Below are positions 14,401 through 46,625 of a stretch of DNA of 64,000 nt, piece by piece; the stretch's first letter is position 1; every line of letters begins with the position of its first letter. The notes beneath the pieces were generated by a model. That model saw only the letters and a program-made list of their open reading frames with translations. It did no database searches and was not told the origin of the DNA. Source of the stretch: Scheffersomyces stipitis CBS 6054 (Eukaryota > Ascomycota > Pichiomycetes > Serinales > Debaryomycetaceae); NCBI RefSeq assembly GCF_000209165.1, contig NC_009047.1, positions 248,001 to 312,000 on the forward strand, written 5' to 3'. A program made the translations under genes and the position numbers.

Positions 14401-17046
14401 AGAAGCAGGCGCCGGAGTAGGAGTCGACGGAGGCTGCGACAGAGGAGTAGTAGATGCAGCAGGAGAGACCGGTGCCGAAGCAGACGACAGAGCTGCAGAT
14501 GAACCTGGCGATTGAGAAACAGTACTGCCAGATGGCGTGGATGGAGGCGAGGGAGATGGGGCCAGAGACACACGAGGACCCTGAGTGAGGCCTGGAGCAG
14601 GTGCCAGAATAGAAGGAAAACTGCCACCACCACTACCACCACCACCAATGGAGGTAGCCGACACGACAGTAGACGTCAGAGGTCTTGCAAAAGGAAAGAC
14701 ATTTTCCTGGAACCGAACATGAGAAGAGGTAATCACTTGTCTGGTAGCGAGATCATAAACAAGATGAGCTTTCCGAAACGGATCAGATCCAAGATAAACA
14801 CCCTTGATTGCACGAGCGACCAACTTCAGTTGACGGTGATTGGGTGGAACATTCACAAAGGCAGCACACCCAAACACTTTAAGTTGAGATAAGATAGGCC
14901 TCGCGCCATGCCAGAGTTCAAATGGCGAGCGATTTTGGAGAACAGGTGTTGGTAGCCTGTTTAGGAGAAATGCAGCATGTTGGAGTGCATGCGGGAAGAG
15001 GGGCGAAGGAAGAGAGCTCGCAGTGATCATGGTACGCGTTTTGTCAAGAACGGAGCGAATCGCTCTTTCAGCACGTCCATTTTGGTGTGAGTTACCAGGC
15101 ACAGTGAGCTGGGTCTGGATCCCTTCTGCCGCAAAGAATGAAGTAAGCGTCAGATTAACAAACTCACCTCCATTGTCAGAACGAAAGTTACAGACACGGT
15201 AGCCACCACGACTGGAGAAGTGGTTTGTCCATGCCTTAATAACTTTGATAATGAAGTCCGCAGCATCCGATTTCTTGAGAAGAGGCCCAACAGCCTTGAA
15301 GCGAGTAAAGTCGTCAAGAAGAATACAAAAATAAAACAACGAGGAGGGACCACCGGCATGAGGACCGGACAAATCACAGTGAAGAAGTTGCAAGGGAGCA
15401 GATGTGACTGGGCCGGTGGTCGTTTTGGGAATAACCCGAGTGCTCTTGGAGCTAAGACATGCTTCACATGAAATCGAGTCGTGAACAGCCGTGCGAGGCA
15501 TGTTCGGATATTTCAAGGCCAGACGAACGACAGTCGGGGAAGGGTGGCCAAGGCGAGCATGGACAAGAGCAGAGGCAGAAATAGGTGCCACACCAGCGTC
15601 CGCAGCAGGAGCAGCGACCGTAACAGGAGCGGGGGCCGAGTAGGCAGAGTGGTTAACCCGCGAGACAGTCGAGGGGCGGACAATTTCGAGACACAGCAAG
15701 TAAAGATTTCTCAGGTCTCTGGTAGCAAGTTGGCCATATTTAGGGTGAACAATATCATCATGAGAGATAACAAGCTTGTCGCCCGTAGTAGTAACAGCCA
15801 GGATGGAAAGAAGATTCTGAGTACAGTCAGGAACGTAAAGAACATTGAACACCCGAATCTTCTGACCATGGAGATCAAACACAAGAGTACCACGACCGGC
15901 AATCGAGAGAGGCTCGTGACCGGCGTTCATGACAGAACCAGAGTGAGGAACGATGTCATGGAAGAGACTTCTATCGTTACAAATGTGGGTAGAAGCACCT
16001 GAATCAAAAATAAAGCTGGCAGAGGAAGAAGAAGCCAAGAGGGCATAGTGGGTGTAGTGAGCGAGATGAGCATAATAAGCACCGGGCTGGTCAAAACCAA
16101 AAGTCAGAGCATCATCAGCGAGAGCATAATGAGCAGCAGGCTTTGGACGAGAGCCGTGCCTCCTGCGGTGCTTTCCTGGACCGCCAGGACCGAAGCGAGA
16201 AGCCATACGAGGAACTTCACCCTCACGATAAGGAGCAGGGCAGTTCTTGGCCATGTGACCACACCCATAGCAGTTGTAGCAATCAAGCTGCCAAATCAGA
16301 TCCGTACCTTTAGCCTTGATCAAGTTCCTGGTGACAGGACCAGAAGGAGAAGACAAGGACGTAAGGGCATAAGCAGATTGAGACGAGGACAGGACAAGCA
16401 AGGCGGAGGACGTGGCAGGTGGAGTAAGCTCATCATGATAAGCAAAGAAATTGAGAACTTCGTCCGCAGTCACGGTGGGAGTCAGGCGAACTTGAGAAAA
16501 GAATAGATCTCTAACCTTGGAGTTCCCCGTACCATAAAGGAAGAGGAGCGCTTTCATGGAGTCGTTATCGTACTTAGTCATAAACGCAGTCAACTTTTCA
16601 GCAATCAAGAACCCAGCTTCAGTCGTAATGGTCGGATCAGCAAGGCCACCAAATAAGTACTTGAGATAACCGACCGCATCCCTAGAGCTGGCGATCGCAT
16701 ACTTGGTTTCGACAGCTTTCCAAGTTTCGACTCCCAGAGAGTAGTGCGTGAACAATGACTGAACGTCAGGCTTCATACACTTGAGAATAAGCTCACGGAG
16801 CTTGTGGCTCAACGCCTGCTGGTCCGTAAAGGTGATGGAAAGTTCTTTCTCTGAAAGATAAGCAGCAATCTCTGTAGCCAAGACACAGCTACTGAACATA
16901 CCAGTCATCCAGTCTTTCCATTCCAGAAAGTTCTCACGGCCTCTGAGAAGAAGAGTATCAATGACCATGAGGCCAGAATTTAATTGGCTCATAACCTGTT
17001 GAACTGTTTGCTTTGGAAGCTCAGTAGATTGAATCGGATTATTCAT
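11467..17046 (-). CDS. Family-A gag-pol polyprotein (Ty1/copia, Ty5-like)
   Basis: One frame of 1859 codons encoding capsid, protease, integrase, reverse transcriptase and RNase H of an LTR retrotransposon. Visible motifs: CCHC zinc knuckle CYNCYGCGHMAKNC (~256-269); aspartic protease FDSGAS (D348); integrase HxxxH-CxxC, then D559, D624, E660 (exact DD35E spacing); a long Pro/Ser/acidic linker (~750-1280) with internal minisatellites; RT with QMDVSTAFLNG, LYGLKQAP and YVDD (D1550-1551); RNase H with VDSDWGSDSSDRKS and TTEAEYMA; ending VADMFTKGL. ATG 17046 is chosen because the 55 upstream codons lie in U3, before the TATA box. The first codons lie in the LTR and the frame crosses the primer site (QQ-VMSQ). 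No frameshift separates gag and pol, as in Ty5 and copia. It ends MQLTQ, unlike the other A copies (MQLA). Confidence 0.93.
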   Translation of the reverse strand: MNNPIQSTELPKQTVQQVMSQLNSGLMVIDTLLLRGRENFLEWKDWMTGMFSSCVLATEIAAYLSEKELSITFTDQQALSHKLRELILKCMKPDVQSLFTHYSLGVETWKAVETKYAIASSRDAVGYLKYLFGGLADPTITTEAGFLIAEKLTAFMTKYDNDSMKALLFLYGTGNSKVRDLFFSQVRLTPTVTADEVLNFFAYHDELTPPATSSALLVLSSSQSAYALTSLSSPSGPVTRNLIKAKGTDLIWQLDCYNCYGCGHMAKNCPAPYREGEVPRMASRFGPGGPGKHRRRHGSRPKPAAHYALADDALTFGFDQPGAYYAHLAHYTHYALLASSSSASFIFDSGASTHICNDRSLFHDIVPHSGSVMNAGHEPLSIAGRGTLVFDLHGQKIRVFNVLYVPDCTQNLLSILAVTTTGDKLVISHDDIVHPKYGQLATRDLRNLYLLCLEIVRPSTVSRVNHSAYSAPAPVTVAAPAADAGVAPISASALVHARLGHPSPTVVRLALKYPNMPRTAVHDSISCEACLSSKSTRVIPKTTTGPVTSAPLQLLHCDLSGPHAGGPSSLFYFCILLDDFTRFKAVGPLLKKSDAADFIIKVIKAWTNHFSSRGGYRVCNFRSDNGGEFVNLTLTSFFAAEGIQTQLTVPGNSHQNGRAERAIRSVLDKTRTMITASSLPSPLFPHALQHAAFLLNRLPTPVLQNRSPFELWHGARPILSQLKVFGCAAFVNVPPNHRQLKLVARAIKGVYLGSDPFRKAHLVYDLATRQVITSSHVRFQENVFPFARPLTSTVVSATSIGGGGSGGGSFPSILAPAPGLTQGPRVSLAPSPSPPSTPSGSTVSQSPGSSAALSSASAPVSPAASTTPLSQPPSTPTPAPASTPVPSSAPVPSSAPVPSSAPVPSATLVPSDTLVPSTSAALTAPSRAVVLAQRSDLPPSDSYELSDDSYTAPASREVPTLTAPRTVPSLPAPRKVPSLPSTRKVPSLPSTRTVPSLPAPRTVPSLLPVPRNRPSAPTAPLGLPHPAVEAPSPIPGSSSAIPMEIDSTDTEPEPMSEDGYDMEVVSDQEFFDAPEQYGTHPRSSPLISTRSSMDVLLDQEEYPDPSTYMDIVVMDSDDLSSYHDSEMEDASDMDPLPLIRPTSNMEMEDTSVTYPLPLTRHTPTTQTVVSSTPPPPPQPLPRVVQSDSPQSSPIIEVPDSPPLQSRPQQFLLPPGLSPTRLIELPASGGMELILSLTDRALVPLNSEANNKLTHLVVSRPPPVNGVKHRLTPVPSRDGTHPQTLKRAHRPILVPTRSQRQQDNQNLINYPQRQQIEYITTDSESFSEADNPNDLDYTETHGQPLIMGSSAFMVTIMTPQVPRTYEEATNSPQRERWIEAMNKEFGAQMENSTWTLAELPKGKRALGMKWVYTIKDDGTYKARLVALGFRQKHGIDYEETFAPVIRSESIKLLLAIAAVHKMKIHQMDVSTAFLNGKIDTELYIKQPKGFMDEQYPHMVCKLNKSLYGLKQAPLIWNSTINKFLENNGFIRSKSEFGIYRRNNVILGLYVDDLLIASPRENEIYEAKKLLLNKFKMKDLGLARKFLGINIEQGPEGITANLSDYIKKTLEELNLEELNSVKSPIIQGQHLNQKSKPCDATIYRSIVGKLLYASNTIRGDIAYIVGMLSRYFNEPTEVTLTAAKHVLRYLKGTQKLGQHYTNINDLQVFVDSDWGSDSSDRKSISGYAIKYGGSLISWKSKKQTTTALSTTEAEYMALATVIKEVIWLITFFRELRIPISLPIMIWEDNTSCIKLSEHPVHHERTKHIDIRYHFIRDKIIDNIVKLRQIKSADNVADMFTKGLTPGTFQHLIQLSGMQLTQ
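16986..16996 (-). promoter_or_regulatory. Primer-binding site (initiator tRNA-Met anticodon loop)
   Basis: Reads GGTTATGAGCC on the minus strand, directly after the 5' LTR. It is complementary to the anticodon stem-loop of initiator tRNA-Met (anticodon CAU), the half-tRNA priming known from Ty5 and Drosophila copia. It also encodes gag residues VMS. Confidence 0.85.
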
Positions 17047-17389
17047 AATGTAGGACAGTATATTGATTAACTTATTTAAGATAGATAATTTCCATATAGA
17101 AGAAGAAAAGTTATAGAAAGTTAGAAAGGAGAAGGGGGAGTAAGACCCCCTTAAATAGATGCCAAATACAATCACAGGCTGACCCCTCATCGGGATGAAA
17201 TGAAACGACATGACCAGAATTTCAGGTTAGTCGGACATAATTGATTCTCATTGGTAGATGTTATCTTATCACATTACTGTGCACAATTATGTCTGAATGG
17301 CTGCAAATCCTGCATTCATAAAGTTTACGCATTGGATTAAAAATAGAATATAGAATATGCTTTTAGGTTTGATATCAGCATATTCAACA
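16997..17389 (-). mobile_element. Family-A 5' LTR of A1
   Basis: 393 bp, TGTTGAACTG to TATTCAACA. It has TATTTAAG in place of the usual TATATAAG, and CATCGGGATG in U3. The right border abuts B5 pol at 17390 (flank ACAGT). Confidence 0.92.
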
Positions 17390-22007: not shown

Positions 22008-22400
22008 TGTTGAACTGTTTGCTTTGGAAGCTCAGTAGATTGAATCGGATTATTCATAATGTAGGACAGTATATTGATTAACTTATTTAAGATAGATAAT
22101 TTCCATATAGAAGAAGAAAAGTTATAGAAAGTTAGAAAGGAGAAGGGGGAGTAAGACCCCCTTATATAGATGCCAAATACAATCACAGGCTGACCCCTCA
22201 TCAGGATGAAATGAAACGACATGACCAGAATTTCAGGTTAGTCTGACATAATTGATTCTCATTGGTAGATGTTATCTTATCACATTACTGTGCACAATTA
22301 TTTCAGAATGGCTGCAAATCCTGCATTCATAAAGTTTACGCATTGGATTAAAAATAGAATATAGAATATGCTTTTAGGTTTGATATCAGCATATTCAACA
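22008..22400 (-). mobile_element. Family-A 3' LTR of A4
   Basis: 393 bp, preceded (on -) by the polypurine tract read as AAGGGGGGA (22401-22409). Confidence 0.93.
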
Positions 22401-25400
22401 TCCCCCCTTAATCCAATGGTCATTTAATTATGCTAGTTGCATTCCTGATAGTTGGATTAAGTGTTGGAAGGTTCCTGGAGTTAGTCCTTTTGTAAACATG
22501 TCTGCAACGTTGTCAGCAGATTTGATTTGGCGAAGTTTGACAATATTGTCTATGATTTTGTCACGGATGAAATGATAGCGAATATCTATGTGTTTCGTAC
22601 GTTCGTGGTGTACAGGATGTTCGCTGAGTTTGATACATGAGGTGTTATCTTCCCAAATCATTATTGGTAGTGATATTGGGATGTGAAGTTCTCTGAAGAA
22701 TGTGATTAGCCAGATAACTTCTTTTATAACGGTTGCGAGGGCCATGTACTCAGCTTCAGTGGTTGACAATGCTGTGGTGGTTTGTTTCTTGGATTTCCAA
22801 GAGATTAGGCTTCCCCCATACTTGATGGCATACCCACTGATTGATTTCCTGTCACTGCTATCACTTCCCCAGTCTGAGTCAACAAACACTTGTACATCGT
22901 TTATGTTTGTGTAGTGCTGACCGAGTTTCTGTGTTCCCTTTAGATAGCGGAGAACATGTTTGGCGGCAGTTAGAGTTACCTCTGTTGGTTCGTTGAAGTA
23001 CCGACTTAACATTCCAACAATATACGCAATATCACCTCGTATGGTATTGCTAGCATAAAGAAGCTTTCCTACTATGCTTCTGTAAATTGTTGCATCGCAG
23101 GGTTTGGATTTCTGGTTTAGATGCTGTCCCTGAATAATAGGACTTTTCACGCTGTTGAGCTCTTCAAGATTTAGTTCCTCCAACGTTTTCTTGATGTAGT
23201 CAGAAAGATTTGCTGTGATCCCATCAGGGCCCTGTTCTATGTTGATTCCTAGGAATTTGCGTGCCAATCCAAGATCCTTCATCTTGAACTTGTTCAGGAG
23301 AAGTTTCTTGGCTTCGTAGATTTCATTTTCTCGAGGACTCGCAATAAGTAGGTCATCAACGTAAAGGCCAAGAATCACATTATTTCTTCTGTAGATCCCG
23401 AACTCGGATTTCGATCGAATAAAGCCGTTATTCTCCAAGAATTTATTGATAGTCGAGTTCCAGATCAATGGAGCTTGTTTTAGACCATATAGTGATTTGT
23501 TCAACTTACAAACCATATGTGGGAATTGCTCATCTATGAAACCTTTGGGCTGCTTAATGTAGAGTTCTGTATCAATCTTCCCATTTAGGAAGGCCGTCGA
23601 GACGTCCATCTGATGAATCTTCATCTTATGGACAGCCGCAATGGCTAGTAGAAGTTTGATACTTTCACTCCTGATCACAGGCGCAAAGGTTTCTTCATAG
23701 TCAATTCCATGTTTTTGTCTAAAACCTAGAGCAACTAGTCTGGCTTTGTAAGTTCCATCATCTTTGATGGTATAGACCCACTTCATTCCTAGGGCTCGTT
23801 TCCCCTTAGGAAGCTCAGCAAGAGTCCACGTAGAGTTTTCCATTTGAGCACCAAATTCCTTGTTCATAGCTTCAATCCATCGTTCTCGTTGAGGACTGTT
23901 AGTGGCTTCCTCATAGGTGCGTGGCACTTGTGGAGTCATTATGGTGACCATAAATGCACTGCTACCCATAATGAGAGGTTGGCCATGTGTTTCAGTATAG
24001 TCGAGATCGTTGGGATTGTCTGCTTCTGAAAACGATTCACTATCGGTGGTGATGTACTCAATTTGTTGTCTCTGTGGATAGTTGATCAAATTTTGATTGT
24101 TCTGTTGTCTCTGTGACCGTGTTGGAACAAGTATTGGTCTGTGTGCCCTCTTGAGTGTTTGTGGATGTGTTCCATCACGCGACGGAACCGGGGTGAGTTT
24201 ATGCTTAACCCCATTCACCGGAGGAGGACGCGATACAACAAGATGAGTTAGTTTGTTGTTGGCCTCAGAATTCAGAGGGACCAAGGCACGGTCAGACAGC
24301 GATAGGATGAGTTCCATCCCCCCTGAAGCAGGCAACTCAATGAGACGAGTAGGAGAAAGACCCGGAGGGAGGAGGAATTGCTGAGAACGAGATTGAAGTG
24401 GGGGAGAAGCAGGAAGCTCAACAATAGGAGAGGATTGAGGAGAGTCGGATTGAACGACCCTAGGCAGTGGTTGAGGAGGAGGTGGAGGTGTAGAGGACAC
24501 CACAGTCTGCGTAGTAGGAGTATGACGAGTAGGCGGCAGAGAATAATTGGCGGAGGTGTCCTCCATGTCCGTATTAGAAGTAGGACGAATAAGCGAAAGG
24601 GGATCCATGTCGGAGGCATCCTCCATTTCCGAGTCGTGATAAGAAGAGAGGTCATCCGAATCCATCACCACGATGTCCATATAGGTGGACGGATCTGGAT
24701 ATTCTTCCTGATCCAGCAGAACATCCATAGAGGAGCGCGTGGAGATTAAAGGTGACGAACGTGGATGAGTGCCATATTGCTCAGGAGCATCGAAGAATTC
24801 CTGATCAGAGACCACTTCCATGTCATAGCCAACTTCAGACATAGGTTCAGGCTCAGTATCCGTAGAAACAATTTCCATGGGTATGGCCGATGAAGATCCA
24901 GGGATAGGGGATGGAGCCTTAACCGCAGGATGAGGAAGACCGAGAGGAGCAGTAGGAGCAGATAGTATATTGCGAGGAACAGGAAGAAGGGAGGGTACTG
25001 TACGAGGTGCTGGAAGTGAAGGTACCGTACGAGGTGCTGGAAGAGATGGCACCTTACGAGTTGAAGGAAGGGAGGGTACCTTACGAGGAGCAGGAAGGGA
25101 TGGTACCTTACGAGGAGCAGGAAGGGATGGTACCGTACGAGGAGCAGTAAGAGTTGGTACCTCACGAGAAGCAGGAGCTGTATAGGAGTCGTCAGACAGC
25201 TCGTAGGAGTCAGAGGGAGGCAGATCAGACCTCTGAGCCAGAACAACGGCACGGGATGGTGCAGTTAGAGCCGCAGAAGTAGAAGGTACCAGAGTATCAG
25301 AAGGTACCGGAGCAGAAGAAGGTACCGGAGCAGAAGAAGGTACCGGAGCAGAAGAAGGTACCGGAGCAGAAGAAGGTACCGGAGTAGAAGCAGGAGCCGG

Positions 25401-27834
25401 AGTAGGAGAAGGTACCAGAATAGGAGAAGGCACCGGCGTAGGAGTCGACGGAGGCTGCGACAGAGGAGTAGTAGATGCAGCAGGAGAGACCGGTGCCGAA
25501 GCAGACGACAGAGCTGCAGATGAACCTGGCGATTGAGAAACAGTACTGCCAGATGGCGTGGATGGAGGCGAGGGAGATGGGGCCAGAGACACACGAGGAC
25601 CCTGAGTGAGGCCTGGAGCAGGTGCCAGAATAGAAGGAAAACTGCCACCACCACTACCACCACCACCAATGGAGGTAGCCGACACGACAGTAGACGTCAG
25701 AGGTCTTGCAAAAGGAAAGACATTTTCCTGGAACCGAACATGAGAAGAGGTAATCACTTGTCTGGTAGCGAGATCATAAACAAGATGAGCTTTCCGAAAC
25801 GGATCAGATCCAAGATAAACACCCTTGATTGCACGAGCGACCAACTTCAGTTGACGGTGATTGGGTGGAACATTCACAAAGGCAGCACACCCAAACACTT
25901 TAAGTTGAGATAAGATAGGCCTCGCGCCATGCCAGAGTTCAAATGGCGAGCGATTTTGGAGAACAGGTGTTGGTAGCCTGTTTAGGAGAAATGCAGCATG
26001 TTGGAGTGCATGCGGGAAGAGGGGCGAAGGAAGAGAGCTCGCAGTGATCATGGTACGCGTTTTATCAAGAACGGAGCGAATCGCTCTTTCAGCACGTCCA
26101 TTTTGGTGTGAGTTACCAGGCACAGTAAGCTGGGTCTGGATACCTTCTGCCGCAAAGAATGAAGTAAGCGTCAGATTGACAAACTCACCGCCATTGTCAG
26201 ATCGAAAATTACAGACACGGTAGCCACCACGACTGGAGAAGTGGTTTGTCCATGCCTTAATAACTTTGATAATAAAGTCCGCAGCATCCGATTTCTTGAG
26301 GAGAGGGCCAACAGCCTTGAAGCGAGTAAAGTCGTCAAGAAGAATACAAAAATAAAACAACGAGGAGGGACCACCGGCATGAGGACCGGACAAATCACAG
26401 TGAAGAAGTTGCAAGGGAGCAGATGTGACTGGGCCAGTGGTCGTTTTGGGAATCACCCGAGTGCTCTTGGAGCTAAGACATGCTTCACATGAAATCGAGT
26501 CGTGAACGGCCGTGCGAGGCATGTTCGGATATTTCAAGGCCAGACGAACGACAGTAGGAGAAGGGTGGCCAAGGCGAGCATGAACAAGAGCAGAGGCAGA
26601 AATAGGTGCCACACCAGGGTCCGCAGCAGGAGCGGGGGCCGAGTAGGCAGAGTGGTTAGCCCGCGAGACAGTCGAGGGGCGGACAATTTCGAGACACAGC
26701 AAGTAAAGATTTCTCAGGTCTCTGGTAGCAAGTTGGCCATACTTAGGGTGAACAATGTCATCATGAGAGATAACAAGTTTGTCGCCCGTAGTAGTTACAG
26801 CCAGGATGGAAAGAAGATTCTGAGTACAGTCAGGAACGTAAAGAACATTGAACACCCGAATCTTCTGACCATGGAGATCAAACACAAGAGTACCACGACC
26901 GGCAATCGAGAGAGGCTCGTGACCGGCGTTCATGACAGAACCAGAGTGAGGAATGATGTCATGAAAGAGACTTCTATCGTTACAAATGTGGGTAGAAGCA
27001 CCTGAATCAAAAATAAAGCTGGCAGAGGAAGAAGAAGCCAAGAGGGCATAGTGGGTGTAGTGGGCGAGATGGGCATAGTAAGCACCGGGCTGGTCAAAAC
27101 CAAAGGTCAGAGCATCATCAGCGAGAGCATAATGAGCAGCAGGCTTTGGACGAGAGCCGTGCTTCCTGCGGTGCTTCCCTGGACCGCCAGGACCAAAACG
27201 AGAAGCCATACGAGGAACTTCACCCTCACGATAAGGAGCAGGGCAGTTCTTGGCCATGTGACCACACCCATAACAGTTGTAGCAATCAAGCTGCCAAATC
27301 AGATCCGTACCTTTAGCCTTGATCAAGTTCCTGGTGACAGGACCAGAAGGAGAAGACAAGGAGGTAAGGGCATAAGCAGATTGAGACGAGGACAGGACCA
27401 GCAAGGCGGAGGACGTGGCAGGAGGAGAAAGTTCATCATGATAAGCAAAGAAATTGAGAACTTCGTCCGCAGTCACCGTGGGAGTCAGGCGAACTTGAGA
27501 AAAGAATAGATCTCTCACCTTGGAGTTTCCCGTACCATAAAGGAAGAGGAGCGCTTTCATGGAGTCGTTATCGTACTTCGTCATAAACGCAGTCAACTTT
27601 TCAGCAATCAAGAACCCAGCTTCAGTCGTAATGGTCGGATCAGCAAGACGACCAAATAAGTACTTGAGATAGCCGACCGCATCCCTAGAGCTGGCGATCG
27701 CATACTTGGTTTCGACAGCTTTCCAAGTTTCGACACCCAGAGAGTAGTGCGTGAACAATGACTGAACGTCAGGCTTCATACACTTGAGGATAAGCTCACG
27801 GAGCTTGTGGCTCAACGCCTGCTGGTCCGTAAAG

Positions 27835-28281
27835 TGTTGAAATCCGGTATTAGATAAAGTTTGATAATGCATGAATATGCATGATCTAGAAAATATCGTA
27901 AATACCGGATATTGATAATCTAATAGATTTGGCTACAACTCTTGTGAGAGCAAATCATATATCATAATAAGGATATGGTGGTAATAGAAAACACAATGGC
28001 AGGTATACAGAGAGGATAATAGAACCCCACACGGACATACGGAAATAGATGTGGAGAAAGGTTTCAATACCACAGCTATGAAACAAATGTGAAACATGAG
28101 AACAAGAATCCATGGAGCATGTGAATGTGAGACAACACCATAAATAAGGGTGATATCCTCTCAGAGTTAGATAGACTTTCTTAATGTTTTAATAACGATA
28201 ACTAGAACAACTTACAAGTTCTACCTTTACTGTTAACAATTATTACACGTAAGACACTATGAATGCTTCTGAATTACAACA
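27835..28281 (+). mobile_element. Family-B 5' LTR of B2
   Basis: TGTTGAAATCCGG to GAATTACAACA. A TATA-like ATAAATAAG lies near 28142-28150. The gag ATG at 28259 lies inside the LTR, 23 bp before its end. Confidence 0.95.
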
Positions 28282-34950: not shown

Positions 34951-35343
34951 TGTTGAACTGTTTGCTTTGGAAGCTCAGTAGATTGAATCGGATTATTCAT
35001 AATGTAGGACAGTATATTGATTAACTTATTTAAGATAGATAATTTCCATATAGAAGAAGAAAAGTTATAGAAAGTTAGAAAGGAGAAGGGGGAGTAAGAC
35101 CCCCTTATATAGATGCCAAATACAATCACAGGCTGACCCCTCATCAGGATGAAATGAAACGACATGACCAGAATTTCAGGTTAGTCTGACATAATTGATT
35201 CTCATTGGTAGATGTTATCTTATCACATTACTGTGCACAATTATTTCAGAATGGCTGCAAATCCTGCATTCATAAAGTTTACGCATTGGATTAAAAATAG
35301 AATATAGAATATGCTTTTAGGTTTGATATCAGCATATTCAACA
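34951..35343 (-). mobile_element. Family-A 3' LTR of A6
   Basis: 393 bp, of the same base subtype as A3/A4 (CATCAGGATG, TTAGTCTGAC, TTATTTCAGAATGG). The polypurine tract follows at 35344. Confidence 0.92.
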
Positions 35344-35379
35344 TCCCCCCTTAATCCAATGGTCATTTAATTATGCTAG

Positions 35380-35810
35380 TGTTGAGATTGGAAATCTAGA
35401 GTAATCCAATAGATTGAAGTTTAGTTATATAACAAGAAACTGAGCGTGCAAGAAATAATATTTCAGATTAGAAGCATTATTCAGAAACGCACAGGTTGCA
35501 AATTAAGCCGCACTGATGTGCAGGCAACTCTGAGGTATAAAAGAAAGCTGAAATCCTCAAAGTCTTGAAAAAGTTTATACGTTTATAATTAATCAATTTA
35601 CGATTCATTTGATGGAGGTTATTCTAGAGATGCAGAGAATAACATATTGAACGACTGTAGGATACGCTGTATCCATATAGACAAGTTGCGCGCCTTGTTT
35701 AAACAGTTGTATCAAGATAAAGAAGAAGACAGACAAATTACAACATGGATAGGCAATCAAGAGGTCTACATAAACTAGAGTCCATCATATCAACAATTCA
35801 CATCTCAAAA
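35380..35810 (+). mobile_element. Family-C 5' LTR
   Basis: TGTTGAGATTGG to CACATCTCAAAA, 431 bp. The terminal inverted repeat is TGTTGAGAT / ATCTCAAAA with one mismatch at the next-to-last base. It contains a consensus TATA box. Confidence 0.93.
35536..35543 (+). promoter_or_regulatory. TATA box in LTR-C
   Basis: TATAAAAG within the LTR, ~156 bp from its start, is a plausible promoter for the non-coding genomic RNA. Confidence 0.65.
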
Positions 35811-35824
35811 GGTTATGAGCCCTG
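35811..35824 (+). promoter_or_regulatory. C primer-binding site
   Basis: GGTTATGAGCCCTG: 14 nt complementary to the initiator tRNA-Met anticodon arm as known from S. cerevisiae, three more than in A or B, which diverge after GGTTATGAGCC. Confidence 0.83.
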
Positions 35825-36268
35825 TTAGTGTCTGCTTTTACTGTCATCCTTCGATATTGCTCTAGTCTTTGAGCAGATCGTTGGCTTTCTGTCCGTTTGC
35901 TGAATTCGGTTGATGTGGAAGTGTTTTTCTATCCATGTTGATATCATGTGGCGTTTCATTCACCCCTTCTGCTTGTGAAAATTTTTCTTTCTCTGTGTGG
36001 CTCATTTTGCTCCATCTCCAGTGCGATTTCATGTGCGATACCCATGTCCTGTGTGTAAGAATGAATCTATCCGGTTAAATTCTATTCGTCCTATTCCTGT
36101 GTCAAATACCACAAAGAGTTCTAGTCACTTTGTCCTGTTTTCGATGCTTTCGATGTTTTTATATATATACAGAGATTATAATCTGTGTAGTATTACGGTG
36201 AGGTATATTGCCGAATACCAAGAATCCGAGCTTGTTGTTCTCTCATTTGTTTGACGAGATCAATTAAT

Positions 36269-37040
36269 ACTTGTCCCGAGTGACATTCTACTGATTGACA
36301 GCCTACCGAGGCTGATATCTACTTGTCCCGAGCGACTGCTTCTTATTGACGGCCCCCTTGGCTGCTCTCCACTTGTCCCGTGCGACATCTTACTTATTAA
36401 CAGCCCTCTGGCTGATCTCCTCATGTCCCGAGCGACATCTTACTTATTGACAGCCCTCTGGCTGATCTCCACTTGTCCCGTGCGACATCCTACTTATTAA
36501 CAGCCCACTGGCTGATCTCCTCATGTCCCGAGCGACATCTTACTTATTGACAGCCCTCTGGCTGATCTCCACTTGTCCCGTGCGACATCCTACTTATTAA
36601 CAGCCCACTGGCTGATCTCCACTTGTCCCGAGCGACATCTTACTTATTGACAGCCCTCTGGCTGATCTCCACTTGTCCCGTGCGACATCCTACTTATTAA
36701 CAGCCCTCTGGCTGATTCTACTGGTCCCGAACGACTACTTCTTATTGACGGCCCTCTTGCCTGATCTCTACTAGTCCCGAGCGACATCATACTTCTGAAC
36801 GGCCCTCTGGCTGCTCTCTACTAGTCCCGAGCGACTACTTCTTATGGACGGCCCTCTTGGCGGATCTCTATTTGTCGCGAACGACATCTTACTTATTAAC
36901 AGCCTGCCGAGGCTGCTTCCTTCTGGTCCCGAGTGACTACCTACTGCCCACTATCTTGGCTGATTCCTTCTGGTCCTGAGTAACTAGTTTTTGACAATCC
37001 ACTGACTGATTCTCGTTAGTCCTGTGTGAATAGTTGCTAT
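36269..37040 (+). repeat. 50-bp tandem array inside C (about 15 units)
   Basis: Units start at about 36269, 36321 and then every 50 bp to ~36973. Each contains GTCCCGNGCGAC, a TTATTRAC stretch and CAGCCCTCTGGCTGA. The central units (36371-36718) are nearly perfect and mostly alternate between two subtypes (GAGCGAC.../GTGCGAC...), giving a 100-bp higher-order period. Units decay towards both ends. CAGCC...GGCTG in each unit can form a 5-bp stem. Confidence 0.9.
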
Positions 37041-37222
37041 TGTTAGTCACTTGTGACTATGCTGCTAGTACTGTAGGACCATTTACTGTGGGTGACGAGT
37101 AATTACTTCCTGTCAGCTCTATGTGACCATTTGCAGTGGTCGTTCCCATCTGTTTACTGCAAGCTCATAATGGTTACTTGCTTTCGGTCTGTTATTACTA
37201 CTTACTATTATTCCTTTGCGAC

Positions 37223-37271
37223 TAGTTATAGAAGACTGCCACTATTTATTGATGCTAGTCTTCTATAACTA
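37223..37271 (+). repeat. Perfect 15-bp inverted repeat (hairpin) in C
   Basis: TAGTTATAGAAGACT (37223-37237), a 19-nt spacer, then its exact reverse complement (37257-37271). It would form a stable hairpin in the RNA. It lies in non-coding sequence after the 50-bp array and is not followed by a T-run. Confidence 0.85.
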
Positions 37272-37906
37272 TATCATCTGATATGAGAGATCCCCGAGTG
37301 TTCTCCTATTATTTATTGCTGAGCCTGCCGTGGCTCCCTACTGTAGTCCGTTACGACTACCTCTCGTCTTACCCAACAAACTTGGGTATTCCTTCTGTAT
37401 TTTAAAGTGACACCCGGTCATTCTTAATTCTTTTACGATTAATTGCTACAGTCTACTGTGACTGTATTCTCTGTATTCTGCGAGAAACCTGATTGTGTTC
37501 TCGCTTACCTAGAATGATACACTCGCAGTCATTCCATGGTTGCGGTGCTATTTGGAACCTTATGTCGCGTTCCATTTAACCTACAATATGGTGCTCCGAG
37601 AGTCCATATTAACCATATGATTCCACGTCAGTCTGTTGGGCCCATGCAGTCTACGTGTATCATCTGAATTACTTTCTACTCCAAATTCAAGGAGTATCTG
37701 CTAAAGATAGCAACCCTATTCTCGAATATAGAATAGTATGCGCTGTTATAAAATCTGCACAAGCGGTGCAGTACTCACCGGTTCTGATAAGAAACATGAG
37801 TCTATGTTCTGACTGAAACTATCATCACTACCTTTATTTACTGTGAGGATGATAGTGAACATTGCGTGTGCAAACTACAAATCTGTGAATTACGAATGTT
37901 GTACTC

Positions 37907-37925
37907 TTAGATTATGGGGGAATGT
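37907..37925 (+). repeat. Internal copy of the C polypurine-tract border
   Basis: Nineteen bases (TTAGATTATGGGGGAATGT) identical to 38465-38483, which spans the true polypurine tract and the first three LTR bases. It could be a second (central) polypurine tract or the relic of an older LTR border. Confidence 0.75.
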
Positions 37926-38470
37926 GAATAGATTGCTGTTCTAATCCAAGAGTACTTGATTACACAGTTGCCCTTACAAAATGTGTAAGAGTAAAATGAA
38001 CGACTATTAGATTAAGAGCAGGAGTATTGAACATTGGAAATATCAAATGATCTAATCTAATAGTAATGTTGAATTGATTCATCGTTAGATATGATTATGT
38101 CTACAGTGTGCCGTACACACAAATAACCTCATTCTTATATCTACATTATACCATACTAACATCGTTATCGGATATAATGTTGATCTCGATAATCACAACA
38201 CAATGTGGGTATCCTACCCAACAACAATATGACCATCACGTAAGTGATGGAATACTACTCCTGGATGAAATTTAACAGGAAATTTAAGAAATAATCACTA
38301 GTGATCAAGATGCTCCAAATGGAATCTGAAAATTAGGAATATACATCACGAAGATTATTACCAGTCTATCAGGAAGTGCAAAGAGTGGAAGTTCACAAAT
38401 ACTTTCAAAACAGATGCTACTGATTTGAACTAAGAGCTGGATCAGATGCAAACTTCAATAACCATTAGAT

Positions 38471-38480
38471 TATGGGGGAA
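38471..38480 (+). promoter_or_regulatory. C polypurine tract
   Basis: TATGGGGGAA directly before the 3' LTR. Confidence 0.83.
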
Positions 38481-38911
38481 TGTTGAGATTGGAAATCTAG
38501 AGTAATCCAATAGATTGAAGTTTAGTTATATAACAAGAAACTGAGCGTGCAAGAAATAATATTTCAGATTAGAAGCATTATTCAGAAACGCACAGGTTGC
38601 AAATTAAGCCGCACTGATGTGCAGGCAACTCTGAGGTATAAAAGAAAGCTGAAATCCTCAAAGTCTTGAAAAAGTTTATACGTTTATAATTAATCAATTT
38701 ACGATTCATTTGATGGAGGTTATTCTAGAGATGCAGAGAATAACATATTGAACGACTGTAGGATACGCTGTATCCATATAGACAAGTTGCGCGCCTTGTT
38801 TAAACAGTTGTATCAAGATAAAGAAGAAGACAGACAAATTACAACATGGATAGGCAATCAAGAGGTCTACATAAACTAGAGTCCATCATATCAACAATTC
38901 ACATCTCAAAA
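38481..38911 (+). mobile_element. Family-C 3' LTR
   Basis: 431 bp, no difference from the 5' LTR by eye, followed by GCTAG. Confidence 0.93.
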
Positions 38912-41900
38912 GCTAGTTGCATTCCTGATAGTTGGATTAAGTGTTGGAAGGTTCCTGGAGTTAGTCCTTTTGTAAACATGTCTGCAACGTTGTCAGCAGA
39001 TTTGATTTGGCGAAGTTTGACAATATTGTCTATGATTTTGTCACGGATGAAATGATAGCGAATATCTATGTGTTTCGTACGTTCGTGGTGTACAGGATGT
39101 TCGCTGAGTTTGATACATGAGGTGTTATCTTCCCAAATCATTATTGGTAGTGATATTGGGATGTGAAGTTCTCTGAAGAATGTGATTAGCCAGATAACTT
39201 CTTTTATAACGGTTGCGAGGGCCATGTACTCAGCTTCAGTGGTTGACAATGCTGTGGTGGTTTGTTTCTTGGATTTCCAAGAGATTAGGCTTCCCCCATA
39301 CTTGATGGCATACCCACTGATTGATTTCCTGTCACTGCTATCACTTCCCCAGTCTGAGTCAACAAACACTTGTACATCGTTTATGTTTGTGTAGTGCTGA
39401 CCGAGTTTCTGTGTTCCCTTTAGATAGCGGAGAACATGTTTGGCGGCAGTTAGAGTTACCTCTGTTGGTTCGTTGAAGTACCGACTTAACATTCCAACAA
39501 TATACGCAATATCACCTCGTATGGTATTGCTAGCATAAAGAAGCTTTCCTACTATGCTTCTGTAAATTGTTGCATCGCAGGGTTTGGATTTCTGGTTTAG
39601 ATGCTGTCCCTGAATAATAGGACTTTTCACGCTGTTGAGCTCTTCAAGATTTAGTTCCTCCAACGTTTTCTTGATGTAGTCAGAAAGATTTGCTGTGATC
39701 CCATCAGGGCCCTGTTCTATGTTGATTCCTAGGAATTTGCGTGCCAATCCAAGATCCTTCATCTTGAACTTGTTCAGGAGAAGTTTCTTGGCTTCGTAGA
39801 TTTCATTTTCTCGAGGACTCGCAATAAGTAGGTCATCAACGTAAAGGCCAAGAATCACATTATTTCTTCTGTAGATCCCGAACTCGGATTTCGATCGAAT
39901 AAAGCCGTTATTCTCCAAGAATTTATTGATAGTCGAGTTCCAGATCAATGGAGCTTGTTTTAGACCATATAGTGATTTGTTCAACTTACAAACCATATGT
40001 GGGAATTGCTCATCTATGAAACCTTTGGGCTGCTTAATGTAGAGTTCTGTATCAATCTTCCCATTTAGGAAGGCCGTCGAGACGTCCATCTGATGAATCT
40101 TCATCTTATGGACAGCCGCAATGGCTAGTAGAAGTTTGATACTTTCACTCCTGATCACAGGCGCAAAGGTTTCTTCATAGTCAATTCCATGTTTTTGTCT
40201 AAAACCTAGAGCAACTAGTCTGGCTTTGTAAGTTCCATCATCTTTGATGGTATAGACCCACTTCATTCCTAGGGCTCGTTTCCCCTTAGGAAGCTCAGCA
40301 AGAGTCCACGTAGAGTTTTCCATTTGAGCACCAAATTCCTTGTTCATAGCTTCAATCCATCGTTCTCGTTGAGGACTGTTAGTGGCTTCCTCATAGGTGC
40401 GTGGCACTTGTGGAGTCATTATGGTGACCATAAATGCACTGCTACCCATAATGAGAGGTTGGCCATGTGTTTCAGTATAGTCGAGATCGTTGGGATTGTC
40501 TGCTTCTGAAAACGATTCACTATCGGTGGTGATGTACTCAATTTGTTGTCTCTGTGGATAGTTGATCAAATTTTGATTGTTCTGTTGTCTCTGTGACCGT
40601 GTTGGAACAAGTATTGGTCTGTGTGCCCTCTTGAGTGTTTGTGGATGTGTTCCATCACGCGACGGAACCGGGGTGAGTTTATGCTTAACCCCATTCACCG
40701 GAGGAGGACGCGATACAACAAGATGAGTTAGTTTGTTGTTGGCCTCAGAATTCAGAGGGACCAAGGCACGGTCAGACAGCGATAGGATGAGTTCCATCCC
40801 CCCTGAAGCAGGCAACTCAATGAGACGAGTAGGAGAAAGACCCGGAGGGAGGAGGAATTGCTGAGAACGAGATTGAAGTGGGGGAGAAGCAGGAAGCTCA
40901 ACAATAGGAGAGGATTGAGGAGAGTCGGATTGAACGACCCTAGGCAGTGGTTGAGGAGGAGGTGGAGGTGTAGAGGACACCACAGTCTGCGTAGTAGGAG
41001 TATGACGAGTAGGCGGCAGAGAATAATTGGCGGAGGTGTCCTCCATGTCCGTATTAGAAGTAGGACGAATAAGCGAAAGGGGATCCATGTCGGAGGCATC
41101 CTCCATTTCCGAGTCGTGATAAGAAGAGAGGTCATCCGAATCCATCACCACGATGTCCATATAGGTGGACGGATCTGGATATTCTTCCTGATCCAGCAGA
41201 ACATCCATAGAGGAGCGCGTGGAGATTAAAGGTGACGAACGTGGATGAGTGCCATATTGCTCAGGAGCATCGAAGAATTCCTGATCAGAGACCACTTCCA
41301 TGTCATAGCCATCTTCAGACATAGGTTCAGGCTCAGTATCCGTAGAAACAATTTCCATGGGTATGGCCGATGAAGATCCAGGGATAGGGGATGGAGCCTT
41401 AACCGCAGGATGAGGAAGACCGAGAGGAGCAGTAGGAGCAGATAGTATATTGCGAGGAACAGGAAGAAGGGAGGGTACTGTACGAGGTGCTGGAAGTGAA
41501 GGTACCGTACGAGGTGCTGGAAGAGATGGCACCTTACGAGTTGAAGGAAGGGAGGGTACCTTACGAGGAGCAGGAAGGGATGGTACCTTACGAGGAGCAG
41601 GAAGGGATGGTACCGTACGAGGAGCAGTAAGAGTTGGTACCTCACGAGAAGCAGGAGCTGTATAGGAGTCGTCAGACAGCTCGTAGGAGTCAGAGGGAGG
41701 CAGATCAGACCTCTGAGCCAGAACAACGGCACGGGATGGTGCAGTTAGAGCCGCAGAAGTAGAAGGTACCAGAGTATCAGAAGGTACCGGAGCAGAAGAA
41801 GGTACCGGAGCAGAAGAAGGTACCGGAGCAGAAGAAGGTACCGGAGCAGAAGAAGGTACCGGAGTAGAAGCAGGAGCCGGAGTAGGAGAAGGTACCAGAA

Positions 41901-44529
41901 TAGGAGAAGGCACCGGCGTAGGAGTCGACGGAGGCTGCGACAGAGGAGTAGTAGATGCAGCAGGAGAGACCGGTGCCGAAGCAGACGACAGAGCTGCAGA
42001 TGAACCTGGCGATTGAGAAACAGTACTGCCAGATGGCGTGGATGGAGGCGAGGGAGATGGGGCCAGAGACACACGAGGACCCTGAGTGAGGCCTGGAGCA
42101 GGTGCCAGAATAGAAGGAAAACTGCCACCACCACTACCACCACCACCAATGGAGGTAGCCGACACGACAGTAGACGTCAGAGGTCTTGCAAAAGGAAAGA
42201 CATTTTCCTGGAACCGAACATGAGAAGAGGTAATCACTTGTCTGGTAGCGAGATCATAAACAAGATGAGCTTTCCGAAACGGATCAGATCCAAGATAAAC
42301 ACCCTTGATTGCACGAGCGACCAACTTCAGTTGACGGTGATTGGGTGGAACATTCACAAAGGCAGCACACCCAAACACTTTAAGTTGAGATAAGATAGGC
42401 CTCGCGCCATGCCAGAGTTCAAATGGCGAGCGATTTTGGAGAACAGGTGTTGGTAGCCTGTTTAGGAGAAATGCAGCATGTTGGAGTGCATGCGGGAAGA
42501 GGGGCGAAGGAAGAGAGCTCGCAGTGATCATGGTACGCGTTTTATCAAGAACGGAGCGAATCGCTCTTTCAGCACGTCCATTTTGGTGTGAGTTACCAGG
42601 CACAGTAAGCTGGGTCTGGATACCTTCTGCCGCAAAGAATGAAGTAAGCGTCAGATTGACAAACTCACCGCCATTGTCAGATCGAAAATTACAGACACGG
42701 TAGCCACCACGACTGGAGAAGTGGTTTGTCCATGCCTTAATAACTTTGATAATAAAGTCCGCAGCATCCGATTTCTTGAGGAGAGGGCCAACAGCCTTGA
42801 AGCGAGTAAAGTCGTCAAGAAGAATACAAAAATAAAACAACGAGGAGGGACCACCGGCATGAGGACCGGACAAATCACAGTGAAGAAGTTGCAAGGGAGC
42901 AGATGTGACTGGGCCAGTGGTCGTTTTGGGAATCACCCGAGTGCTCTTGGAGCTAAGACATGCTTCACATGAAATCGAGTCGTGAACGGCCGTGCGAGGC
43001 ATGTTCGGATATTTCAAGGCCAGACGAACGACAGTAGGAGAAGGGTGGCCAAGGCGAGCATGAACAAGAGCAGAGGCAGAAATAGGTGCCACACCAGGGT
43101 CCGCAGCAGGAGCGGGGGCCGAGTAGGCAGAGTGGTTAGCCCGCGAGACAGTCGAGGGGCGGACAATTTCGAGACACAGCAAGTAAAGATTTCTCAGGTC
43201 TCTGGTAGCAAGTTGGCCATACTTAGGGTGAACAATGTCATCATGAGAGATAACAAGTTTGTCGCCCGTAGTAGTTACAGCCAGGATGGAAAGAAGATTC
43301 TGAGTACAGTCAGGAACGTAAAGAACATTGAACACCCGAATCTTCTGACCATGGAGATCAAACACAAGAGTACCACGACCGGCAATCGAGAGAGGCTCGT
43401 GACCGGCGTTCATGACAGAACCAGAGTGAGGAATGATGTCATGAAAGAGACTTCTATCGTTACAAATGTGGGTAGAAGCACCTGAATCAAAAATAAAGCT
43501 GGCAGAGGAAGAAGAAGCCAAGAGGGCATAGTGGGTGTAGTGGGCGAGATGGGCATAGTAAGCACCGGGCTGGTCAAAACCAAAGGTCAGAGCATCATCA
43601 GCGAGAGCATAATGAGCAGCAGGCTTTGGACGAGAGCCGTGCTTCCTGCGGTGCTTCCCTGGACCGCCAGGACCAAAACGAGAAGCCATACGAGGAACTT
43701 CACCCTCACGATAAGGAGCAGGGCAGTTCTTGGCCATGTGACCACACCCATAACAGTTGTAGCAATCAAGCTGCCAAATCAGATCCGTACCTTTAGCCTT
43801 GATCAAGTTCCTGGTGACAGGACCAGAAGGAGAAGACAAGGAGGTAAGGGCATAAGCAGATTGAGACGAGGACAGGACCAGCAAGGCGGAGGACGTGGCA
43901 GGAGGAGAAAGTTCATCATGATAAGCAAAGAAATTGAGAACTTCGTCCGCAGTCACCGTGGGAGTCAGGCGAACTTGAGAAAAGAATAGATCTCTCACCT
44001 TGGAGTTTCCCGTACCATAAAGGAAGAGGAGCGCTTTCATGGAGTCGTTATCGTACTTCGTCATAAACGCAGTCAACTTTTCAGCAATCAAGAACCCAGC
44101 TTCAGTCGTAATGGTCGGATCAGCAAGACGACCAAATAAGTACTTGAGATAGCCGACCGCATCCCTAGAGCTGGCGATCGCATACTTGGTTTCGACAGCT
44201 TTCCAAGTTTCGACACCCAGAGAGTAGTGCGTGAACAATGACTGAACGTCAGGCTTCATACACTTGAGGATAAGCTCACGGAGCTTGTGGCTCAACGCCT
44301 GCTGGTCCGTAAAGGTGATGGAAAGTTCTTTTTCTGAAAGATAAGCAGCAATCTCTGTAGCCAAGACGCAGCTACTGAACATACCAGTCATCCAGTCTTT
44401 CCATTCCAGAAAGTTCTCACGGCCTCTGAGAAGAAGAGTATCAATGACCATGAGGCCGGAATTTAATTGGCTCATAACCTGTTGAACTGTTTGCTTTGGA
44501 AGCTCAGTAGATTGAATCGGATTATTCAT
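38899..44529 (-). CDS. Family-A gag-pol of A6, extended by three codons from LTR-C
   Basis: 1876 codons from the LTR-internal ATG (44529). It has the CCHC knuckle, FDSGAS protease, DD35E integrase, YVDD reverse transcriptase and RNase H, all without interruption. The C insertion falls in the final codons: the normal ending MQLA-stop becomes MQLA-FEM-stop, read into the C LTR. The protein should therefore be functional, although the element's own polypurine tract is now 3.5 kb further away. It is nearly identical to the A4 copy (e.g. SEDGYDMEV here, SEVGYDMEV in A4). Confidence 0.93.
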   Translation of the reverse strand: MNNPIQSTELPKQTVQQVMSQLNSGLMVIDTLLLRGRENFLEWKDWMTGMFSSCVLATEIAAYLSEKELSITFTDQQALSHKLRELILKCMKPDVQSLFTHYSLGVETWKAVETKYAIASSRDAVGYLKYLFGRLADPTITTEAGFLIAEKLTAFMTKYDNDSMKALLFLYGTGNSKVRDLFFSQVRLTPTVTADEVLNFFAYHDELSPPATSSALLVLSSSQSAYALTSLSSPSGPVTRNLIKAKGTDLIWQLDCYNCYGCGHMAKNCPAPYREGEVPRMASRFGPGGPGKHRRKHGSRPKPAAHYALADDALTFGFDQPGAYYAHLAHYTHYALLASSSSASFIFDSGASTHICNDRSLFHDIIPHSGSVMNAGHEPLSIAGRGTLVFDLHGQKIRVFNVLYVPDCTQNLLSILAVTTTGDKLVISHDDIVHPKYGQLATRDLRNLYLLCLEIVRPSTVSRANHSAYSAPAPAADPGVAPISASALVHARLGHPSPTVVRLALKYPNMPRTAVHDSISCEACLSSKSTRVIPKTTTGPVTSAPLQLLHCDLSGPHAGGPSSLFYFCILLDDFTRFKAVGPLLKKSDAADFIIKVIKAWTNHFSSRGGYRVCNFRSDNGGEFVNLTLTSFFAAEGIQTQLTVPGNSHQNGRAERAIRSVLDKTRTMITASSLPSPLFPHALQHAAFLLNRLPTPVLQNRSPFELWHGARPILSQLKVFGCAAFVNVPPNHRQLKLVARAIKGVYLGSDPFRKAHLVYDLATRQVITSSHVRFQENVFPFARPLTSTVVSATSIGGGGSGGGSFPSILAPAPGLTQGPRVSLAPSPSPPSTPSGSTVSQSPGSSAALSSASAPVSPAASTTPLSQPPSTPTPVPSPILVPSPTPAPASTPVPSSAPVPSSAPVPSSAPVPSSAPVPSDTLVPSTSAALTAPSRAVVLAQRSDLPPSDSYELSDDSYTAPASREVPTLTAPRTVPSLPAPRKVPSLPAPRKVPSLPSTRKVPSLPAPRTVPSLPAPRTVPSLLPVPRNILSAPTAPLGLPHPAVKAPSPIPGSSSAIPMEIVSTDTEPEPMSEDGYDMEVVSDQEFFDAPEQYGTHPRSSPLISTRSSMDVLLDQEEYPDPSTYMDIVVMDSDDLSSYHDSEMEDASDMDPLSLIRPTSNTDMEDTSANYSLPPTRHTPTTQTVVSSTPPPPPQPLPRVVQSDSPQSSPIVELPASPPLQSRSQQFLLPPGLSPTRLIELPASGGMELILSLSDRALVPLNSEANNKLTHLVVSRPPPVNGVKHKLTPVPSRDGTHPQTLKRAHRPILVPTRSQRQQNNQNLINYPQRQQIEYITTDSESFSEADNPNDLDYTETHGQPLIMGSSAFMVTIMTPQVPRTYEEATNSPQRERWIEAMNKEFGAQMENSTWTLAELPKGKRALGMKWVYTIKDDGTYKARLVALGFRQKHGIDYEETFAPVIRSESIKLLLAIAAVHKMKIHQMDVSTAFLNGKIDTELYIKQPKGFIDEQFPHMVCKLNKSLYGLKQAPLIWNSTINKFLENNGFIRSKSEFGIYRRNNVILGLYVDDLLIASPRENEIYEAKKLLLNKFKMKDLGLARKFLGINIEQGPDGITANLSDYIKKTLEELNLEELNSVKSPIIQGQHLNQKSKPCDATIYRSIVGKLLYASNTIRGDIAYIVGMLSRYFNEPTEVTLTAAKHVLRYLKGTQKLGQHYTNINDVQVFVDSDWGSDSSDRKSISGYAIKYGGSLISWKSKKQTTTALSTTEAEYMALATVIKEVIWLITFFRELHIPISLPIMIWEDNTSCIKLSEHPVHHERTKHIDIRYHFIRDKIIDNIVKLRQIKSADNVADMFTKGLTPGTFQHLIQLSGMQLAFEM

Positions 44530-44872
44530 AATGTAGGACAGTATATTGATTAACTTATTTAAGATAGATAATTTCCATATAGAAGAAGAAAAGTTATAGA
44601 AAGTTAGAAAGGAGAAGGGGGAGTAAGACCCCCTTATATAGATGCCAAATACAATCACAGGCTGACCCCTCATCAGGAGGAAATGAAACGACATGACCAG
44701 AATTTCAGGTTAGTCGGACATAATTGATTCTCATTGGTAGATGTTATCTTATCACATTACTGTGCACAATTATGTCTGAATGGCTGCAAATCCTGCATTC
44801 ATAAAGTTTACGCATTGGATTAAAAATAGAATATAGAATATGCTTTTAGGTTTGATATCAGCATATTCAACA
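44480..44872 (-). mobile_element. Family-A 5' LTR of A6
   Basis: 393 bp, with U3 bases (CATCAGGAGG, TTAGTCGGAC, TTATGTCTGAATGG) that match the neighbouring A7 LTR rather than its own 3' LTR. Confidence 0.92.
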
Positions 44873-46178: not shown

Positions 46179-46625
46179 TATTGAAATGTGAATTGTTGAT
46201 ATGATGGACTCTAGTTTATGTAGACCTCTTGATTGCCTATCCATGTTGTAATTTGTCTGTCTTCTTCTTTATCTTGATACAACTGTTTAAACAAGGCGCG
46301 CAACTTGTCTATATGGATACAGCGTATCCTACAGTTGTTCAATATGTTATTCTCTACATCTCTAGAATAACCTCCCTCAAATGAATCGTAAATTGATTAA
46401 TTATAAACGTATAAACTTTTTCAAGACTTTGAGGATTTCAGCTTTCTTTTATACCTCAGAGTTGCCTGCACATCAGTGCGGCTTAATTTGCAACCTGTGC
46501 GTTTCTGAATAATGCTTCTAATCTGAAATATTATTTCTTGCATTCGCAGTTTCTTGCACGCTCAGTTTCTTGTTATATAACTAAACTTCAATCTATTGGA
46601 TTACTCTAGATTTCCAATCTCAACA
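46179..46625 (-). mobile_element. Solo family-C LTR (divergent)
   Basis: A minus-oriented copy of the 431-bp C LTR, here 447 bp because of a short duplication around the TTTCTTGCA stretch (46545-46570). The outer end reads CAATA (plus sense of the LTR), not CA. No internal C sequence adjoins. The flanks (ATTTC left, CTGTT right) differ and belong to different elements, so the site is rearranged. Confidence 0.87.

Follow-up and report, generated by a model that had tools for sequence, protein, structure and literature searches.

A non-coding Ty5-type LTR element, very probably mobilised in trans, in the retroelement clusters of Scheffersomyces stipitis

Structure of element C

The window analysed in this study is a stretch of 64,000 nucleotides from the genome of S. 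stipitis CBS 6054 (C7:248001-312000, contig NC_009047.1). It contains an LTR element, hereafter C, which is inserted in an element of the coding family A. The features of C and its surroundings are as follows.

34951..44872, minus strand: host element of C, an A-family Ty5-like copia with target-site duplication (TSD) GAACA; C is inserted 36 bp from the host 3′ LTR
35375..35379, no strand: TSD GCTAG to the left of C, directly abutting the 5′ LTR
35380..35810, plus strand: 5′ LTR of C, 431 bp, identical to 38481-38911
35536..35543, plus strand: TATA box TATAAAAG in the 5′ LTR, predicted from sequence, inside the LTR stretch common to chromosome ends
35811..35824, plus strand: primer-binding site GGTTATGAGCCCTG, 14 nt matching nt 26-39 of initiator-type tRNA-Met (Ty5 type)
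36269..36904, plus strand: tandem array in the interior, units of about 50/100 bp, 636 bp in all; 100 bp longer in the copy on contig C2
36905..38480, plus strand: dyad-rich part of the interior; its many perfect inverted repeats are short (15 bp at most)
37907..37925, plus strand: internal second copy (19 bp) of the polypurine-tract/LTR-start sequence
38464..38480, plus strand: extended polypurine tract ATTAGATTATGGGGGAA (23-bp degenerate pattern)
38481..38911, plus strand: 3′ LTR of C, identical to the 5′ LTR over 431 bp
38912..38916, no strand: TSD GCTAG to the right of C, directly abutting the 3′ LTR
46179..46625, minus strand: single LTR-C without an exact 5-bp duplication

An earlier sequence-only reading had described the identical LTRs, TATA box, primer-binding site, polypurine tract and GCTAG duplication of C, and this anatomy was confirmed with exact coordinates. 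The interior is 2,670 bp long, and the polypurine tract GGGGGAA adjoins the 3′ LTR. LTR-C ends in AA in the window copy; the five remaining full copies, described below, end in TA, and the canonical terminus is CA. In addition, the primer-binding site pairs over 14 nt with the initiator-type tRNA-Met of the same genome, and those of the coding families A and B pair over 11 nt, which supports the earlier claim that C shares its tRNA primer with both families. Furthermore, an empty site for the window insertion was found, as an A-family copy (22008-27834) matches both flanks of C. The internal second tract copy may be a central tract or a relic. A 15-bp match to the tract region of B lies near it (38002-38016).

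Coding capacity

We found that the proteins of the coding families A, B and D gave no tblastn match (E ≤ 10) in the window copy of C or in the C4 copy, and the positive control worked. The longest ATG-initiated ORF of the interior encodes 56 aa, against a median of 80 aa in shuffled sequences, and C has no Ty5 Gag or Pol of its own. In addition, an RNA family search of 35000-39400 returned no match at E ≤ 1. Since C lacks its own Gag and Pol, it is classed with the Ty5 type solely as a non-autonomous element using Ty5 machinery. These results agree with the earlier view that the interior is non-coding and that C must borrow proteins. Meanwhile, the interior includes 46 ATG triplets against 61 in shuffled sequences. 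The depletion is most marked in the tandem array, where 3 triplets compare with 9 after shuffling, and is weak elsewhere, and it was set aside as a signal.

Copies of C and age of the lineage

C was searched against its own genome (15,441,179 bp, eight contigs), and there were at least 41 matches of LTR-C, including 18 near-full LTRs, six pieces in clusters and 17 matches at or near chromosome ends. Among the matches listed, the 18 near-full LTRs either belong to one of six full elements or stand singly (six cases), and pairs of LTR-C bound nothing but these six non-coding elements, as read from their positions. The full elements lie on contigs C1, C2, C4 (two copies), C7 (the window copy) and C8. 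The interior had 12 matches, six of them in the full elements and six as pieces on C2, C3 and C5. The window copy is 3,532 bp long with LTRs of 431 bp, and the other five full copies are 3,664 bp long with LTRs of 447 bp. Relative to the copy on C2, the window copy is shorter by 16 bp in each LTR and by 100 bp, or two units, in the array.

Each of the six full copies has a 5′ LTR identical to its 3′ LTR. Between copies there are 0 to 21 substitutions in pairwise comparisons (0-0.6%), and two copies on different contigs are identical over 3,664 bp. In addition, all six are flanked by exact 5-bp duplications, each different from the others; among the single LTRs, the duplication is exact in two and not exact in four. 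Duplications of 5 bp are typical of Ty5-type elements. When the flanks of each full copy were joined at one duplication, the junction was in all six cases spanned by an alignment to a coding element, of family A in one case, B in two and D in three. Two of these alignments span the whole 795 bases, the shortest reaches 26 bases past the junction, and one D-type alignment is only 71% identical. On the basis of the identical LTRs, the low divergence, the distinct duplications and the flank alignments, we read the six copies as separate, recent and nested insertions. Gene conversion within clusters could partly account for the identity among copies. C had earlier been considered recent and mobile, and the finding of six full copies at different target sites, all with identical LTR pairs, bears this out.

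Meanwhile, six diverged pieces of LTR-C were listed with 82-93% identity, and a relic of the interior on C5 is 73% identical to C (L048:5627-6350). Thus, these sequences indicate that C is an old separate lineage and not a fresh deletion product. By eye, the C5 relic adjoins an apparent decayed A-like LTR, and one of its hairpins is inverted relative to C.

Coding families and candidate helpers

The polypurine-tract pattern also led to a third coding family beyond A and B, here called D (locus L059). The D copy at this locus includes a frame of 1,530 aa with reverse-transcriptase, integrase and Ty5 Gag domains. Pfam reverse-transcriptase and integrase domains were found in A, B and D, although the integrase-core match of A (A was tested on copies 11467-17211 and 22428-27872) is just below the Pfam cut-off; a Ty5 Gag domain was likewise found in both B and D. 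Over 667 aligned positions that include the reverse transcriptase, D and B are 61% identical; for D and A, the identity is 46% over 866 aligned positions. The B protein is 98% identical to S. stipitis G9P44_000979, a longer record (2,194 aa). A, B and D are presumably the published Tps5a/b/c, in an order that is not established.

The sequence GGTTATGAGCC is common to A, B, C and D. Over 17 positions of the polypurine tract, D differs from C at one, A at three and B at four. Under strict scoring, the similarity of LTR-C to LTR-A, LTR-B and LTR-D does not exceed that to shuffled sequence. Under loose scoring, LTR-C against LTR-D scored 25 (shuffled mean 18, maximum 27), which is high and not beyond chance. 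Beyond the primer site and the tract, C and A share seven 11-mers in sense and five in antisense (shuffled mean 6.2), which is the chance level. The corresponding numbers are 7 and 8 for B (shuffled 3.1) and 11 and 1 for D (shuffled 4.8), a modest excess in both cases that includes tract-like words and array units.

One explanation for a non-coding element of this kind is simple internal deletion of one of the coding elements, and the primer site and polypurine tract that C has in common with A, B and D would be expected from it. However, LTR-C is not detectably related to the LTRs of these families, no coding relics are left in C, and the diverged LTR-C pieces and the C5 relic point to a long separate history. 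This origin is largely refuted, and we consider it extremely improbable; C was rejected as a deletion derivative of A, B or D on account of its different LTR and the lack of leftover coding sequence. Likewise, no coding relative was found of which C is such a copy, as LTR-C bounds non-coding elements alone among the matches listed.

The earlier suggestion that A or B could be the helper of C was upheld, and it is extended by D, whose tract is nearest to that of C. Because LTR-C has no significant similarity to the LTRs of A, B or D, packaging of C by any of them is something that we infer. D is favored by its polypurine tract, and we give it about an even chance of being the helper. However, in the single D copy that was read the LTRs are unequal, the 3′ LTR being cut near its end. 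This counts against D, whose present activity is putative. B is favored as the most recent intact coding copy seen: in the window, it has identical LTRs, an open frame of 1,427 aa and TAAAG on both sides. It is a possible helper with a lower probability than D, and A would be a rather unlikely one.

Dyads and folding in the interior

In the 36905-38480 part of C, perfect inverted repeats of at least 6 bp account for 336 bases; dinucleotide shuffles give 135 (z 7.1; none of 60 shuffles reached the observed value). Dyads are denser in this part than in any of the 40 segments that tile the window; two of these segments overlap it. The median z is 2.8 in 24 segments of the retroelement cluster, which are not independent since the same elements are repeated in them, C included, and 0.15 in the 16 segments outside.

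The folding of 100-nt windows was also investigated. In 36905-37854, z was below −2 in 8 of 18 sense windows and 6 of 18 antisense windows; in the controls, the fraction was 3-14%. Folding is weak in 37861-38480 (1 of 11 sense and 3 of 11 antisense windows). In addition, the unpaired letters of the dyad-rich part show no wobble bias (one G.T and one A.C). As the two strands fold alike and there is no wobble bias, the dyad-rich part resembles a set of DNA dyads more than an RNA under selection on a single strand. Sense-strand RNA structure was also considered for this part, and for the same two reasons it gained no support relative to DNA dyads. Only in the tandem array does folding lean toward the sense strand (6 of 11 sense windows against 1 of 11 antisense windows below −2).

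It could be argued that the interior itself is under selection, with hairpins serving as structured RNA (in packaging or in avoiding translation) or as non-B DNA. The size of the dyad excess and the number of folding windows in the dyad-rich part and in the sense strand of the array are in its favor. However, the likeness of the strands and the lack of wobble bias give little sign of selection at the RNA level in the dyad-rich part, folding is weak toward its end, the coding DNA of the A element is likewise dyad-rich, and many stems are broken in the C5 relic (by eye). We consider selection on the interior improbable.

Retroelement clusters and centromeres

A degenerate 23-bp polypurine-tract pattern was drawn from A, B and C and used in a search that allowed one mismatch, with the reversed pattern as control. 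There were 42 sites in the genome, all without mismatch; they fall in eight clusters, one per contig, and the reversed pattern had no site in the same genome. This fits the published retrotransposon-cluster centromeres of S. stipitis, with which the clusters may be equated. The centromere setting of C had been overlooked in the earlier reading. Among the matches listed, all LTR-C copies away from chromosome ends lie within the clusters, and the C6 cluster (about 895848-914600) is the only one with no match to LTR-C or to the C interior. Thus, it seems that not every centromere requires C.

The confinement of these LTR-C copies to clusters would also be expected if C were a unit of centromere DNA maintained or propagated because of a role at the centromere, through a process such as gene conversion and not by retrotransposition. 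The dyad-rich interior is in line with this, given the proposal that centromeres commonly have dyad symmetry (Kasinathan & Henikoff 2018, as described in PMC7263194). However, there are six nested insertions of C, each with its own 5-bp duplication, and C has no listed match in the C6 cluster. We regard such an origin as very improbable.

Relation to known elements and proposed mobilisation

The reference genome of S. stipitis has 15.4 Mb in eight chromosomes, and "noncoding, non-autonomous LARD" elements of its centromeres have already been published (PMC8546629, citing Coughlan & Wolfe 2019, Yeast 36:275). Like them, C is LTR-bounded and non-coding, and it lies in Tps5a/b/c clusters of the same species. 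Judged from the description in that source, C almost certainly belongs to the same family. A second precedent is Ty5.L of Wickerhamomyces anomalus, an analogous non-coding LTR element (PMC12711049). Ty5.L also has two LTRs and a non-coding interior (2.4 kb), is centromeric, has a primer site for the anticodon stem of initiator tRNA-Met, which is diagnostic of the Ty5 family, and neighbors two coding Ty5-like families, each of which has its own LTRs; it differs in species, and the parts of PMC12711049 that describe it mention no tandem array or dyads. Thus, the sequence-only reading, which knew of no described yeast example, did not hold on this point.

C is Ty5-type in its primer site (14 nt, tRNA nt 26-39) and in its 5-bp duplication (six of six full copies and two of six single LTRs). 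Plant LARDs are also non-coding LTR elements mobilised in trans, as is proposed for C. They are by convention longer than 4 kb, and C (3.5-3.7 kb) falls short of this strict plant-type length.

Taken together, C is very probably a LARD of the S. stipitis centromeres, a Ty5-type LTR retrotransposon that is non-autonomous and is mobilised by a coding Ty5-like helper. RNA polymerase II would transcribe C from the TATA box of the LTR, and the RNA would be packaged in particles made by A, B or D, the coding Ty5-like families that share its clusters. It would then be reverse-transcribed from the tRNA primer common to C and its helpers, with plus-strand priming at the common polypurine tract. The cDNA would be inserted by the integrase of the helper, and the proposed targeting of this integrase to centromeric chromatin would explain why C lands in other centromeric elements. 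The non-canonical terminus of LTR-C and the four single LTRs without an exact duplication weigh against this reading.

As a non-coding centromeric LARD of S. stipitis, C is already known, and our results are mostly confirmation. They verify, one copy at a time, that the centromere regions of a yeast have received recent and repeated insertions of an element without proteins of its own. The additions are the coding family D, evidence for an old separate lineage of C, its dyad-rich interior and the homology of the LTR promoter to chromosome ends; the last two may already be part of the 2019 description. Furthermore, testable helper candidates are supplied, and three coding families and one parasite in the same clusters make a small, tractable system for trans-mobilisation and centromere targeting.

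Similarity of LTR-C to chromosome ends

The promoter link between LTR-C and chromosome-end sequence is the part that specialists may not know. LTR-C is 69-79% identical to 17 listed places at chromosome ends, and all 17 point outward. Most of these matches span LTR-C positions 153-267, the longest spans 147-336, and the common stretch starts just before the TATA box. For at least 12 of the 16 ends, a match lies no more than about 1.2 kb from the contig tip. With a wider query from the C6 end, a family reaching the LTR-C core was found near 13 of the 16 tips (40 of 51 candidates scored). In addition, the chromosome ends shown (L022-L035) have 24-bp telomere repeats beside the LTR-C-like sequence, and 24-bp telomere repeats have been reported for S. 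stipitis (PMC8546629).

It is possible that the LTR-C-like sequence at chromosome ends is a candidate promoter for telomere-repeat RNA. C might even be a composite, with a promoter-and-leader module (the TATA core and the following 115-190 bp or so) common to centromeres and telomeres, which we consider doubtful. If that were true, the LARD would have gained (or donated) a promoter module. If both modules were active, one type of promoter would drive non-coding transcription through centromeric LARDs and the RNA of telomere repeats.

Meanwhile, a subtelomeric frame of 2,139 aa lies between telomere-repeat tracts on C1 (L022:1772-8191), and it has zinc-finger-like and helicase-like stretches by eye.
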